The notes under the pieces were generated by a model. That model was not told where the DNA came from and did not search any database. It saw nothing but the letters and a program-made list of their open reading frames with translations. Below are positions 22,254 through 64,000 of a stretch of DNA of 64,000 bases, piece by piece. This DNA comes from Symbiodinium sp. CCMP2592 (taxonomy: Eukaryota > Sar > Dinophyceae > Suessiales > Symbiodiniaceae): contig CAJNDT010003846.1 in NCBI GenBank assembly GCA_905221615.1, positions 371,001 to 435,000 of the forward strand, in the 5' to 3' direction. How positions within the stretch are numbered: position 1 is the first letter of the stretch; each line of letters opens with the position of its first letter. Position numbers and translations under genes: made by a program.

Positions 22254-22724
22254 TGTGGGTCGTTCTCCAAACTGTCGGGTCCCTCTGCCTAAACCCTAAG
22301 CCTAAACCCGAAATTGCAGGCCTCCTTTAGCTTATCCTAAGTTGCAGGGTTCCTTTTTAGGGTCCTCTTTATGAGGGTGCACCCATCCAAGGCATGTCGG
22401 GAGGCAGGGCTTTGGGGCTTAGGGTTTCGGACCTACCCCGATTCCGGGATTACGTCACGGAGTTCAAGTTGTATTTTTGAAGGCTTTTGCTCGAAGGGGT
22501 TTCGGTGGAAAGTGTCGTTTTGAACAATTAGCCCGCCAACGACAAGTACCAAGAAATAGAAAAAGCAAGAACAACCATCACCATCGCAAAACAAACGCAG
22601 AAAACACAAGTGAGGTTGTAATACTAATACTAATGCTGATGCTAATACAAATACTCAGACGAATAGTGGTTAGTAATACTCATGTGCATACTGGTACTCA
22701 TAACAATGACAAGAATAATGACAA

Positions 22725-23345
<621 letters not shown>

Positions 23346-23514
23346 CTAACAATAACGACAACAAATAACAATAACAGTAACAAAAATAGTAACAGCAGCA
23401 GTAGCGTAGCAGTCACGGTAGAAATGTCAGGAACAGTAACTATAGCCGTACAGTGACAGTAATAACATTAGTAGGTAATATGTAAGCTAATGGAACCCAT
23501 ATCAGAAGTGCGCT

Positions 23515-58868: not shown

Positions 58869-59012
<144 letters not shown>

Positions 59013-60219
59013 ACTATTTCAATTGAACGCTGCGCGAGCGTGCTCTGCGCTTTGCGGGCGCCTTTGGTCCCGTGCACTCGTGAAACTGGTTATCTGCTAG
59101 CATTCATCGCTCTTATTCCTCTCAAACTGCTCAGTTGAGTAAGACTGTACATCTATGGCTTCCTCCTCCGCCACCTTGTTGTGAACAGACGCGTCCGTCT
59201 GTGCACCTGTCCCAGCAATTAGGTCGTACTTCGGGCGAAGCCGGCGCCTAGAGTATCCGTCTTGTGGCGTCCCACACGGATTACTCATGCTGGAGACAGA
59301 AGGCCGTAAGGGTCACATGTGCGTAAACCTACATACGACTCGGAGTGCTTGTCGTGACTACCCCCCAATAAGCGACGCTCATGCTCTTGGCTTTCCTCGG
59401 ACTGCTTCCGTTATTCTGGGTAGGTTTCCTGCAGAGCTGAGTGAGTCAAACAGCCGACAGCTGGCTGACCATATCGGCTCAGGCGAAGTGCAGTGTCCTG
59501 CATTTTGCCGTGGCTAGCGCGCTGCTCTACAGCTCCCGAAGAGATTTGCAAAAGCGTCGGAAGAGCACCGAATTCCCAGAGGCTGTGCCATACGGGATTT
59601 GAGGAGTCTGTGACATTTACTAATTGCTCCCGTACTAAAATGGGTGCTTAGCCGAAGCGCCCATATTGGGGCAAGAGCAATTCAGCACTAAGCTGGACTA
59701 AAAAAGTGGCGCACTAGGGAGCGGCATTCTCGCCGACGCTAAAAGTGATTGCAAGGCGTGCTGGGCCCTAGACTGATCTTGAGTGAACCTAGCACTAGGA
59801 GCCATGTCCTTTGGGGAGAGCGCGGCAGCCTTCAAAGCGCGAGCCAAAGACACTGGGGTGTCGGATGAGAGCATCGCGAAGCTTGAGGCGGAAGGGTTGA
59901 CAACGATGGCAACTTTTGCCTTCTGTTGTCATTTCAACCCGGCTGCGACAGATGCTTGTGCTCCGGGCTCGTGGCAGTAGCAGGCGAGGCAGTCATGACG
60001 GCCAAAGGGAGTTGGGGGGAAGCTGACTAAATAAAAAGAGCTGATTGAGAGTAAGGAAATTACAGAGTGTGCATGTCCGCGTGCGCTCATGACACACTTG
60101 GCCTTGACGTGAGGCGGCCTGCGTCAACATGAAATTGACGACGGGCTTCTCACGCACGGGCGCCCTGCTTAGCCTGAGGGCCGAGGTTGGGCCGGCATGC
60201 ATCGCCTTAAGCGATGATG
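59013..60219 (-). mobile_element. Region downstream of the RT gene, copy Y of a shared element end
   Basis: This lies between the RT stop and the (AGT)n run. Blocks near 59028-59067 and 59255-59315 match copy X at 48.2-49.0 kb. If the region is the 3' UTR of the RT element, the element ends in a simple-sequence tail, as many non-LTR retrotransposons do. The 1.2 kb length and the unrelated plus-strand frame at 59804 leave room for a composite of two insertions. A small stem (CATCGC-CTTAA-GCGATG) lies at about 60200-60216, just past the stop codon. Confidence 0.45.
59804..59980 (+). CDS. Short dinoflagellate retroelement-associated ORF fragment
   Basis: From the ATG at 59804 the frame reads MSFGESAAAFKARAKDTG, then VSDESIAKLEAEGLTTM and ATFAFCCHFNPAATD, ending at a TAG. 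The pattern A-F-K-x-R-A, then I-x-x-L-E-x-x-G-(L/V)-T-T-x-x-x-F-A-F resembles, from memory, an N-terminal module that recurs at the start of retroelement-type proteins in dinoflagellates. It is on the strand opposite to the RT gene and stops after 58 residues, so it is a truncated fragment or a separate insertion. An alternative GTG start lies at 59783. Confidence 0.4.
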   Translation: MSFGESAAAFKARAKDTGVSDESIAKLEAEGLTTMATFAFCCHFNPAATDACAPGSWQ

Positions 60220-63200
60220 CTAACGAGTTCGTTGCAAGAAAAGCATGTAGACGTTTCGGGAAAGTGATTGAACCAAGGCCGCTGAGGCCCTCTCCGGAAG
60301 CTTGTAGTCATCGCAAATCCACACCTGAGATCTCGCATCCGCGGGGTCCTCTGGCCAGAAGGCTCGGTAGTGCCCGGACGCTAGGGAGTCCCCAAAGTGG
60401 GCAACTCCTGCCAGGACTTGGTAGGATCGTTGGGCAGCGTGCTCGCTGGATGTCCACACGGACACCATGGCACGGCCGGTCCAGGCGCACGGCTGGGTAT
60501 TCTTGACACCGTCTTGCCATCTGCAAATCACAACAGCTAGGAGTTCTGGGGCCCATACCAGCGCTCGACTAAAAGTTTGCGATTCCCAGAATCTTAGGCA
60601 GGCTTGGAGAGACAGAGGTCCCGTCGGAAGGGGAAGGAGAAGAGGACTGACTCCCACATCCGACTCCTCAACGATTCCCCCAGTACGACCCTGCCACTGA
60701 GTGTGCTGAAGGGATCCCATGGGCTTTTGCTGCAGATGGTGAAGAAATTCTGAGACATCGTGTTGCCTGCCATCTAGTCGCCAACCGGCAATGGCATGGC
60801 GAAATTCAAACAGGCCGAACAAGTTCAGAAGTCTAGGGGCACTCTCATCCCCGAGATGGGTTAAGACAGATTGAAAAGCACCCAGATCATACCCAAAGCT
60901 CGATACTTGATGCAAGGCCTGGAAGAGAGCGTTAGCGTAGCAGGAGTTTGCCGTGTTAGACAGTACGCGTTTGTGTAAGCCTGTAGGCTGTGGCTCTGTG
61001 TTCCTGGGGGCCTGCGCCACAGACTCCTGGTTCGAGTCTGTTGTAGGATGACGAGCTGTGCTCGACGAGTTGGAGGCTGTGCCATTCGACCTAGGTCTAA
61101 AAAAGCTGGCCAACGACTTTGTCTGAGGCTTGGGAGGCGGGGCGACGGGATCGACGTCCGCGTCAGGCTGCCCTCGCAGCCACTGCGTGCTTACCTGATA
61201 GAGCACCGGACACTGCTCCGGATGCAGTCTGCGGTCATAGACCTTGTAGCCACAGAAGGGACATGAGTGGCCCTTGGCTAACTGGGGCGAGTAGCCCTGA
61301 CAGATATTAACAGCCCGCCTGTGTAGGCGTGACCAGTCCTTAGGATGCGCCTGACGAAAGTGCGACTTGACTTTGGTGTGGTCAAAAGTCCAGAAGTCAC
61401 ACGTTAAGCACCGATGATTAAGGACCTTGGAATCCGCAGTCCTCGAGAGCTCCGCGATGCGGTGTTGTGGGAGCAGAGCAATGTCCTGTCTCAGCTGGAA
61501 GAGAGTCCTAATATCGGGATGGTTGGACTGTTTGTCTGCTTCTTTTAGTGAACGGAGCTTCTGAGGTTCCGGACATGCCCCCGAAAGCAAGTGGTCACGT
61601 AGGCCTTTCCATTGATGGAATTTACGCTTACATGCCGCACATTGCGGCATCCCATCCACAGCGTGGAGCTTTCTATCGAAGCTTGAAGGCACAAAGCGGT
61701 CAATGCTCGCCGGATGAACCCTCGACTTATGCAAATGTAGTCCATTTGACGTCTGAAATGAAGCCGCGCAGAGCGTGCACTCGTATGAGGTTACCGGATG
61801 TTCCTCGGGCTCAGGGAGTTGTGACAGGACCAACAGCTTATCTCGGATAACCTGCAGAACCGAGGGGTCTGTCGTGATGTCCGGGCTTTGCACTGCTCGT
61901 CGCTCCAGTTTGCGAAGCCGCTTCCTTAGCTTGGACTGCAGTGCGTGGACAGGGTCCTGGATGTTGTAGAGCTGGAAAAGATCCTTAGTGGTGATCCGAG
62001 TGGTGTGAGCCGGCAGGTTCAGCACCGATCGTACCTTGTAGGCGTGCCAGCTGCGAAGCTGTTTGGCCGACTCTTCGCTTAAACCGACGTCAGATAGGCC
62101 AGTCGTCAATGTGCCCAGGACAGTACTCTGCCACACCTTAAGGCGCGACATGGTACTTGCATACCTGCGGTTGTAGACGAATTGGCGAACTTGATGCAAC
62201 TTTTGCTTCGCCTCCCCCATCCGAAAATGCAGGGTCTGCAACTCGAAGTGGTTGTAGGAGATCATAACTCCTAAGTACTTGCTTGAGGAGACCCACTGGA
62301 AGGCAGGGAACGACTTGTTGGGCCCGATGCGCCACCCTCTGACTGGCTCTCCTTTGGGGTTGGTAATCCAGCAGCTGTGTTTGTTCATCACATTTTGTGC
62401 TTCTCTACCTGCCAGCTTTACCAAAATGACGCACTTGCCGATGTTGACTCTGAGTCGATGTTTGCGGACCTCCTCCAACAGGGCAGCTATAAGTGCATGG
62501 ATGGCCTTGAGGTCCTTCTCAGAACGAATAGTCCTATGAAGCGTCAGGTCATCGGCGTAGCCCGTTAAAAACTTCAGAACCTGTTCAGCACCGAACAGAT
62601 CAACCAGAGACCGGAAGAGGTCACCTGTGAGGAACGAGAATAGGGTGGGAGCGAGCTTACATCCTTGTTTAATGCCTGCTGTGGTTTCGATAGAAGTGGA
62701 ATCGCCTTGGGCATGTAAGACGTATCTGGATCCGTCATGGAGAGCTTGAACGAGGTGGACTGTGTCCTGATCGGCCCCCTCGCGCTGAAGGAGACCGATA
62801 ATCTCTTGGCGAGAGACTGTGTCAAACGCCTGGCTTAGGTCTAAAGCAAAGGTCAGACCGCCTACTAGAGATGGCACCTGTGTGCCTTGCTGTATAGCAT
62901 GTCTCGTAGGATGAGCCTGCTCCAACAAAGACCGAGCCTCCCGCAGATGGCACACGACTCTTTCCAGCGCATCTGAAAGCCCACGACCAGGAAGGTAGGC
63001 AAACTGTGGCATATGTTTTAGGAACGAGAGGGTCAGGGGTTGTAGCGCCTCTCTTGCCGCTCCAGCCAGTCCTTTAGCATCCGGTCTCAAAATGCCCAAA
63101 GGACGCAAGTTTGCTGGCTTGTCCGAAGGCTTGCCCGGTTTGGGGATTAGACACAGATCTGCGTCGATGAGATCAGATTCTAGTCCATCCTCTACTTGTT

Positions 63201-64000
63201 TAGCAGCCACATGTCGGGAAAGGACCGGTGCAATGACGTCACTGCAAAGTCTCCAAATGGCAGCAGGTGCAGCTCCGTCAGGCACAGCTTTATTAGGCTT
63301 GATGGAATGAATGTGAGCGGCTAATTTGGATGACTCCAAAACCGGAAAAGCTCCAGTCATTGGCCTCAGCGGGGGGTGAGCCGCGAAAACCTGGTTCGCG
63401 TACTCCCTGAGTGCCGCAAGCTCCTGCGCTGGGCCTAGAAGATGTCCTGTGCTGTCCTTGAGCTGAGCCCGACGCGCCGGCTGCCAAGGCTGCAGCTTTT
63501 TAAGGGTTTGAAACGAAATATGTTGGTCGCCCTCCGCTATGCTGGCGTCAACTTCAGCTATGAAACCCGCTATTCTGTCCTTTTTTGCTTGCTTCACAGC
63601 TTGTCTGTGCGCAACTTGCGCCAGCTCCACCTCAGTTTCTGGTTTGGGGAGTGTGTTCAACCCAGGAGGCTGTGCCATTGGTTGATGAGGCTCGATCAGC
63701 TGTGCTGAGGGAGCTGTGTTGTCTGCCCTGCAAAGGGTCCTGGCCCTCCACATACGTCGAGTCTCGGATTCAAGCGGGATCAGTCGTCTTTTGGGGAGTT
63801 TGGGGAAGAAACGTTCTGCACCCTCCAGCAGCAGTGCATTCCAATCTGAAGGGTCCTGACAGGACTCCATTCTGGATTTCACCCAACTATGCAGTGCCTT
63901 GGCTGTGTCGTCCTCCTCACGGACTGCGGCCTGAAGAGCTAGGGAATCATAACGGCGTGTGCTTCCCTTGTGCGGTGGGAGTAACCAGTGGTGCTGGAGG
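60220..64000 (-). CDS. Non-LTR retrotransposon protein: RT + zinc fingers + USP-type protease, 5' end beyond window
   Basis: The frame is open from the window edge (64000) to a TAG at 60220-60222. A GTG at 63880-63882 is used only for numbering (1220 residues), because 39 further upstream codons are open and no start is visible. Residues 155-490 form a LINE-type reverse transcriptase: LIPKPGK and LRPLGI (244-264), motif A FALDLSQAFD (Asp348), motif B GIKQGCKLAPTLF (403-415), motif C YADD (442-445), then SSKYLGVMIS (533-542). Four zinc-finger motifs follow: C702/C705/H718/H723, C748/C751/H764/C770, C825/C828/H841/H846 and C874/C877/H887/C891. A linker holds TKSLASFFRP (921-930). Residues 968-1217 match a ubiquitin-specific protease: Cys box NTANSCYANALFQ (Cys981), QHDVSEFL (1040-1047), His box SGHYRAF (His1171), WICDD (Asp1191/1192) and a YMLFLQR end. 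By family knowledge the RT would copy element RNA by target-primed reverse transcription. An endonuclease is expected upstream. No internal stop or frameshift is seen, so the copy may be young. Confidence 0.9.
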   Translation of the reverse strand, partial: LQHHWLLPPHKGSTRRYDSLALQAAVREEDDTAKALHSWVKSRMESCQDPSDWNALLLEGAERFFPKLPKRRLIPLESETRRMWRARTLCRADNTAPSAQLIEPHQPMAQPPGLNTLPKPETEVELAQVAHRQAVKQAKKDRIAGFIAEVDASIAEGDQHISFQTLKKLQPWQPARRAQLKDSTGHLLGPAQELAALREYANQVFAAHPPLRPMTGAFPVLESSKLAAHIHSIKPNKAVPDGAAPAAIWRLCSDVIAPVLSRHVAAKQVEDGLESDLIDADLCLIPKPGKPSDKPANLRPLGILRPDAKGLAGAAREALQPLTLSFLKHMPQFAYLPGRGLSDALERVVCHLREARSLLEQAHPTRHAIQQGTQVPSLVGGLTFALDLSQAFDTVSRQEIIGLLQREGADQDTVHLVQALHDGSRYVLHAQGDSTSIETTAGIKQGCKLAPTLFSFLTGDLFRSLVDLFGAEQVLKFLTGYADDLTLHRTIRSEKDLKAIHALIAALLEEVRKHRLRVNIGKCVILVKLAGREAQNVMNKHSCWITNPKGEPVRGWRIGPNKSFPAFQWVSSSKYLGVMISYNHFELQTLHFRMGEAKQKLHQVRQFVYNRRYASTMSRLKVWQSTVLGTLTTGLSDVGLSEESAKQLRSWHAYKVRSVLNLPAHTTRITTKDLFQLYNIQDPVHALQSKLRKRLRKLERRAVQSPDITTDPSVLQVIRDKLLVLSQLPEPEEHPVTSYECTLCAASFQTSNGLHLHKSRVHPASIDRFVPSSFDRKLHAVDGMPQCAACKRKFHQWKGLRDHLLSGACPEPQKLRSLKEADKQSNHPDIRTLFQLRQDIALLPQHRIAELSRTADSKVLNHRCLTCDFWTFDHTKVKSHFRQAHPKDWSRLHRRAVNICQGYSPQLAKGHSCPFCGYKVYDRRLHPEQCPVLYQVSTQWLRGQPDADVDPVAPPPKPQTKSLASFFRPRSNGTASNSSSTARHPTTDSNQESVAQAPRNTEPQPTGLHKRVLSNTANSCYANALFQALHQVSSFGYDLGAFQSVLTHLGDESAPRLLNLFGLFEFRHAIAGWRLDGRQHDVSEFLHHLQQKPMGSLQHTQWQGRTGGIVEESDVGVSPLLLPLPTGPLSLQACLRFWESQTFSRALVWAPELLAVVICRWQDGVKNTQPCAWTGRAMVSVWTSSEHAAQRSYQVLAGVAHFGDSLASGHYRAFWPEDPADARSQVWICDDYKLPERASAALVQSLSRNVYMLFLQRTR

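Follow-up and report, generated by a model that had tools for sequence, protein, structure and literature searches.

A LINE retrotransposon of Symbiodinium whose single protein ends in a predicted ubiquitin-specific protease domain

We analyzed a 64,000-nucleotide stretch of the genome of Symbiodinium sp. CCMP2592 (contig CAJNDT010003846.1, positions 371,001 to 435,000; the whole stretch is called the window, and its G+C content is about 49%). Near one end lies a long interspersed nuclear element (LINE) in which a reverse transcriptase (RT) and a predicted ubiquitin-specific protease (USP) domain share one open reading frame (ORF). A sequence-only reading of the window had described a single uninterrupted minus-strand frame with a LINE-type RT, four zinc-finger motifs and a full set of USP motifs at the C-terminus, and each of these features was recovered. 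The frame (60220-63999) runs uninterrupted for 1259 amino acids plus stop and is open at the window end, its true start lying beyond the window; the contig is masked past that end, which hides the first 359 residues of the window copy. The RT motifs FALDLSQAFD and YADD were located at 62821-62850 and inside 62548-62565, respectively; the Pfam family RVT_1 matches the window protein with E=1e-21, and the PDB entries closest to it in sequence are ORF2 proteins of LINE-1 (E about 1e-11 to 1e-10). All four zinc fingers were read in the translation between 61210 and 61785. The USP motifs follow, with the Cys of NSCY at 60940-60942, QHDVSEFL inside 60742-60768, GHYRAF inside 60355-60381 and WICDD inside 60301-60324. 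The Pfam comparison proposed in the earlier reading placed the window frame above the curated cut-off for UCH (28.1 against 23.9 bits, E=1.9e-6, profile positions 3-253 of 254), and the USP domain alone gave E=1.3e-8.

Two features went beyond that reading. The protein is longer and includes an endonuclease, and TAG microsatellites flank the element (Table 1). The 1618-aa ORF of copy L002 starts with an endonuclease (Pfam Exo_endo_phos, E=7.3e-6, 26.3 bits, cut-off 24.5), placing an APE-type endonuclease and an RT together in one ORF. No Ulp1 or restriction-like endonuclease family was found among the Pfam matches of the ORF.

Table 1. Features of the LINE and its 3' flank in the window
Feature	Position	Strand	Basis or remark
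LINE ORF, last 1259 residues and stop	60220..63999	-	full length in other copies: 1618 aa
RT domain (window-frame residues 285-579, Pfam RVT_1)	62263..63147	-	Pfam and translation
Zinc finger 1 (C2H2 motif)	61714..61785	-	motif read in translation; Pfam zinc-finger matches there below their cut-offs
Zinc finger 2 (CCHC-like motif)	61573..61647	-	motif read in translation
Zinc finger 3 (C2H2 motif)	61345..61416	-	motif read in translation
Zinc finger 4 (CCHC motif)	61210..61269	-	motif read in translation
PQTKSLASFFRP, PIP-box-like motif of the fast-evolving zinc-finger-USP linker	61093..61128	-	degenerate, without Q at the canonical place
USP (UCH, C19) domain	60238..60963	-	Cys 60940-60942, His 60370-60372, Asp-Asp 60307-60312
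3' untranslated region to the common 3' end GCGTTCAATTGAAA	59017..60219	-	
(TAG)n microsatellite adjoining the 3' end; target site or tail	58872..59016	-	TRF: period 3, 48.3 copies

The structure prediction that had been suggested for the C-terminal part gave a confident model of the USP domain that matches the USP fold. Its best fold matches are cellular USPs, and in a library of viral structures the USPs of giant viruses rank first; this ranking does not show the origin of the domain, and a scan of IMG/VR with the related protein P0002 for a viral source gave no relative. The fold matches also bear on the proposal of polyprotein processing, in which the domain would cleave the very protein that contains it, like some viral papain-like proteases. 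The domain does sit in a long single-ORF protein, and polyprotein 1a fragments appear in the viral library at weaker scores (rank 36 and below). However, the matches to cellular and giant-virus USPs are better, USPs recognize the folded body of ubiquitin, and no ubiquitin-like domain occurs among the Pfam matches of the ORF, making self-processing quite unlikely.

The catalytic residues are widely kept. Among 44 near-complete USP domains of the element and its relatives, Cys, His and Asn are each present in 43; the position that we take to be the third of the triad is D or N in 41, and the next Asp is present in all 44 (which of these two adjacent Asp positions is catalytic is our assumption). 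Six key residues are intact in all 18 copies read (L025 and L032 left out). In a separate 18-row USP alignment every row matches UCH at E<=0.01, not all above the curated cut-off; of four whole relatives scanned, P0004 and P0007 lie above it and P0033 (20.5 bits) and P0066 (23.7 bits) below. Apart from the catalytic one, no cysteine is invariant or nearly so in this alignment, and therefore no zinc site is conserved in the USP fingers. The domain thus has in common with cellular USPs (USP30, USP46/12, USP2, USP21) the fold and the Cys, QxD, His and Asp boxes, but it is only about 250 residues long, has no conserved zinc site in the fingers and is part of a LINE protein.

We searched the same genome (1.098 Gb, 5383 contigs) with the protein, scoring the best 37 of 4255 candidates, the window's own place included, and found 17 places at 98-100% identity, one at 90% and 19 at 85-86%. 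The USP could be read to its last residue in 36 of the 37, and a stop was seen in one of the 37. The earlier reading had held that a chance fusion with a host gene would follow if no other copy carried the domain and if transcripts were spliced between RT and USP. We rejected chance fusion, as the USP is carried by 36 of 37 places, by two subfamilies (A and B) and by relatives in other records, with USP identities of 18-50%. The same counts leave a negligible probability that a LINE happened to read through into a host gene for a USP, or that the assembly is at fault; nothing speaks for either beyond the general possibility. Twenty of the 37 copies were taken with their flanks (12 of subfamily A, the one at 90% and seven of subfamily B). 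The stop-to-stop frame is at least 1617 codons long in 16 and 1418-1565 codons in the other four, and RT and USP lie in one uninterrupted frame in the element's copies; judged from the sequences, splicing between them would not be needed. Because subfamily A ORFs differ by a median of only 0.29% of nucleotides (11 copies), these small differences point to recent activity.

The 5' ends of the copies at first appeared variable, as if many were truncated, a reading that we rejected because the alignments were blurred by repeat flanks. Truncation is clear in one of the 20 copies only (L032), the search having favored long copies; in L025 the 5' end is present and the deletion is internal, and L027 runs into a gap. 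No relic of a spliced leader was found at the 5' end of the 20 copies, the best match having 6 mismatches of 21 and lying inside the ORF. Subfamily A (L016-L027) has only about 268 nt of 3' untranslated region after the stop in common with L028 and subfamily B (together L028-L035), and beyond this point its 3' part is unrelated to theirs; that of subfamily B is longer than 2.1 kb, its 3' end not being reached within that distance. A stretch upstream of one copy (G000:C1182:19999-21319) is repeated as well: 12 more copies of it were found at 96-99% identity.

The element has a defined start and a defined surrounding. The same starting letters, GCCGCCACAAGTG, were found in 18 of 20 copies. In 10 of the 11 subfamily A copies that have them, they precede the ATG by 291-293 nt, the exception being L025 with its internal deletion; in five of six such copies of subfamily B, whose ORF is two codons shorter than that of A, they precede it by about 292 nt. 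A TAG-type repeat fills part or all of the 60 nt upstream of the start in 17 of the 18 copies (3-mer fraction 0.43-1.0), against a baseline of 0.11% of window 60-mers that reach a TAG fraction of 0.3. The eighteenth copy, L033, sits in a TTG-type repeat. On the 3' side, the TAG fraction is at least 0.31 (60-mer) in 10 of 12 subfamily A copies; of the other two flanks, an assembly gap interrupts one and the second has only three TAG units. All 12 subfamily A copies read have the common 3' end followed by at least two TAG units, and in the window copy this end (59017) adjoins a 48-unit ACT/TAG array (58872-59016). A short A run, and no long poly(A) tail, precedes the TAG repeats at the 3' end. 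The element may insert into (TAG)n or carry it along; insertion into a pre-existing repeat appears the better reading, because the 5' side is the same repeat as the 3' side; within such a repeat, target-site duplications would not stand out. L032 begins about 600 nt inside the ORF, adjoining a TAG repeat, as expected for target-primed reverse transcription. In L027 the 3' microsatellite runs directly into what looks, by eye, like the 5' coding part of another related, P0002-like LINE, as if two elements use one target array. Elsewhere in the window lies a long trinucleotide-repeat array (22642-23416) that is open on both strands; one of its frames reads as stretches of Q, of N and of T.

The earlier reading had also proposed that the fusion is under selection. 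We calculated the ratio of non-synonymous to synonymous substitution rates (dN/dS) by the Nei-Gojobori method, and for the USP it is well under 1 between subfamilies, though not within subfamily A. Between A and B (L016-L029) the ratio is 0.055 for the endonuclease, 0.031 for the RT, 0.091 for the zinc fingers and 0.085 for the USP, and 0.150 for the linker before the USP; these A-B ratios are rough because dS is near saturation (1.24 in the USP). For USP and linker, respectively, the ratios are 0.089 and 0.255 in L016-L028, 0.079 and 0.176 in L028-L029, 0.096 and 0.310 in L029-L035, and 0.106 and 0.310 in L029-L033. The USP variants within subfamily B (six copies) are 39 synonymous and 12 non-synonymous. 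Together with the catalytic residues kept in distant relatives, the low ratios between subfamilies agree with the proposal.

Relatives were collected with three queries. The USP part found eight proteins, five of them annotated with both RVT_1 and UCH; the RT part found at least 76 proteins at E<=1e-10 (the best 7987 candidates by shared words were scored); and a distant USP query found nine, the query included. All relatives with an organism named in the record are from Symbiodinium. By a local profile at E<=0.01, USP sequence is present in 54 of 88 proteins (87 relatives and the element), 44 of them near-complete; the matches of P0011, P0019 and P0034, among the 54, are short and weak. Of the 34 proteins with no USP match, 20 end within 400 residues of the RT. 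The same architecture, with the catalytic residues kept, thus recurs in distant relatives. The same genome holds further, more distant families. In it, a distant USP query (best 138 of 2141 candidates scored) and a distant RT query (best 111 of 2969 scored) placed a USP at most 6 kb downstream on the same strand of at least 50 of the 111 scored RT places, a count from best-candidate lists in which pairs are missed. One uninterrupted frame joins 34 of the 50 pairs, and the other 16 are not in one open frame. The genome also holds open frames of 3000-5100 codons with LINE RT matches, USP matches or both, far longer than the element's ORF.

The history of the fusion was read from a quick RT tree of 75 rows, with long branches and no outgroup, in which 45 rows have a USP, 13 have none although their tail is at least 540 residues long, and 17 have a shorter tail. 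USP-bearing rows stand on both sides of every deep split. Several USP-less rows stand beside close USP-bearing kin (P0037 and P0039 by P0036, P0046 by P0045, P0076 by P0068), and P0019, a row without USP, falls within the P0002 group. The long-branch rows P0048, P0050, P0055, P0062, P0074, P0078 and P0079 may have truly lost the USP or may stem from broken gene models. Pfam scans of 10 of the 13 USP-less rows showed no UCH at E<=0.05. Over 32 representatives, RT and USP distances correlate (r=0.74, with 0 of 5000 permutations as high), the nearest neighbor is the same for both in just 14, and mean identity is 31% for the RT and 24% for the USP. The simplest reading of these sequences would be an old gain followed by mostly vertical descent with scattered loss or decay; a few independent gains of the USP would be a less simple history.

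Pfam, the predicted fold, dN/dS between subfamilies and the architecture in distant relatives support the USP assignment, the RT-USP fusion and selection on the USP. Several observations weigh against the functional reading that we favor below. Within the young subfamily A, USP dN/dS is 0.954 (L016-L027) and 0.797 (L016-L026), on 8 and 7 changes, and its USP variants are 3 synonymous and 11 non-synonymous (11 copies), showing no constraint, which could be put down to copies drifting once they have inserted. No USP is seen in 13 of the 58 RT rows with a long enough tail, and the USP label is weakly clustered on the RT tree, with at least 10 changes among these 58 rows and 23 of 500 label shuffles clustering it equally well. 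Among the relatives, P0045 has no Asn, and P0061 has neither Cys nor His (S and Q there). The P0061 domain is kept at full length and is likely a dead enzyme. Its retention fits the suggestion that the domain is kept as a ubiquitin-binding or dimerizing module without catalysis, but a binding module alone would not need the Cys and His that are kept in 43 of the 44 near-complete domains, and we consider this suggestion very improbable.

Deubiquitinase-type domains are not foreign to mobile elements. The earlier reading had named Ulp1 and OTU proteases in eukaryotic transposons, and both are on record: Ulp1-like proteases occur in NeSL of nematodes and in one Utopia element (PMC4640811), and Ginger1 transposons carry OTU or Ulp1 (PMC2836005). 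NeSL and Utopia share with the element a non-LTR protein with zinc fingers, an RT and a ubiquitin/SUMO-type cysteine protease, as well as target-specific insertion; however, their protease is Ulp1-like and N-terminal and they have a restriction-like endonuclease after the RT, whereas here a C-terminal USP (UCH) is joined to an APE-type element. The Ginger paper also mentions a Trichomonas protein that joins transposase_11 to Peptidase C19, and proposes that the ubiquitin pathway is involved in transposition (PMC2836005). These too are mobile-element proteins fused to a deubiquitinase-type domain, in the C19 case of the same peptidase family, but they are DNA transposons rather than retrotransposons, and the C19 case is one protein in that paper's discussion. 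Closer to home, SymbioLINE-Dnmt is described as an old, many-copied group of Symbiodinium LINEs with endonuclease and RT and with an acquired enzyme under purifying selection (PMC5890265). That enzyme is a DNA methyltransferase in ORF1, whereas our element has a USP and no such ORF1, for which there is no room because the 5' end lies about 292 nt before the ATG; the words ubiquitin and UCH are absent from the main text of that paper. Human LINE-1 shares the APE endonuclease and RT but has an ORF1 and no protease, whereas the element lacks an ORF1 and a long poly(A) tail. No report of a USP in a non-LTR retrotransposon, or of a LINE with its own ubiquitin-removing enzyme, was found among the best-ranked papers (often the best 15-25) of literature covered mostly without subscription journals and without Repbase. 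LINE proteins with UCH are present in public Symbiodinium records (P0004, P0005, P0080, P0085), where they are entered as 'Pol' or as unnamed products, yet these are undescribed as far as our searches show. On sequence evidence, the protein architecture is real and widespread and new to a known kind of element; its function is predicted.

We favor, as probable, the reading of the element as an APE-type LINE that targets microsatellites, was active recently and encodes a single protein with a predicted USP at its C-terminus, which putatively removes ubiquitin placed by the host. By analogy with its family, the protein would bind its own RNA, and its endonuclease would nick the TAG repeat, where reverse transcription would be primed. 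The USP could then be an active deubiquitinase that acts on the protein-RNA particle of the element or on factors at the place where it inserts; removal of ubiquitin would keep the particle from degradation or restriction. Because the USP is tethered in cis, each particle would bring its own antidote. In mammals, LINE-1 (L1) is reported to be restricted by host ubiquitin ligases: TEX19.1 and UBR2 bring about the polyubiquitination and degradation of ORF1p (PMC5570191), and RAD18, the PCNA ubiquitin ligase, restricts L1, ubiquitinated ORF1p appearing on co-expression (PMC6203705). That the element family carries such a domain suggests a long-standing need to reverse a host defence or repair signal based on ubiquitin.

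A more specific possibility is that the target of the USP is a factor of replication or repair present at the nick, chiefly ubiquitinated PCNA. A PIP-box-like (PCNA-binding) motif would then dock PCNA, and the USP would strip its ubiquitin so that repair polymerases do not displace the element's RT. The consensus PIP box has a leading Q. A motif of the form [T/Q/E]xx[L/I]xx[F/Y/W]F is found in the linker between zinc fingers and USP of the element (TKSLASFF), of subfamily B (EKSLAHFF), of P0001, P0002 and kin, P0009, P0030 and P0006, and of P0033, which has the canonical Q (QSQLQRWF). In five motif-bearing linkers that we shuffled, it arose by chance in 0.4-3.5% of shuffles; four others of the nine shuffled (P0028, P0035, P0041, P0054) have no match, P0028 having A at position 1. 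The leading Q is mostly absent, however, and only 17 of 46 linkers have the motif, nine of them in the P0002 group; most distant families lack it, and three matches in distant families (P0068, P0073, P0087) may be chance. For these reasons the motif would at best be a feature of one sub-clade. In favor of the PCNA proposal, human L1 is described as docking PCNA through a PIP box in ORF2p, a binding that it requires (PMC6203705, PMC10830420), and RAD18, which restricts L1, is the ligase that ubiquitinates PCNA. On balance we regard the proposal as unlikely. We hold tentatively, as a possibility with the odds against it, a broader view in which an ancient, species-rich dinoflagellate LINE clade would be defined by its own USP, an anti-restriction enzyme at the insertion site that erases ubiquitin on the particle or clamp, carried to the nick by the RT protein and in one sub-clade perhaps docked on PCNA via the PIP-like motif.

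Retrotransposition is held to have helped genome expansion in dinoflagellates (PMC11453091). A conserved deubiquitinase in a LINE lineage would parallel, among retrotransposons, the deubiquitinases of viruses, and would make ubiquitin control of retrotransposition in dinoflagellates directly testable. It would also offer compact USPs of about 250 residues, tied to an RT with a defined microsatellite target.

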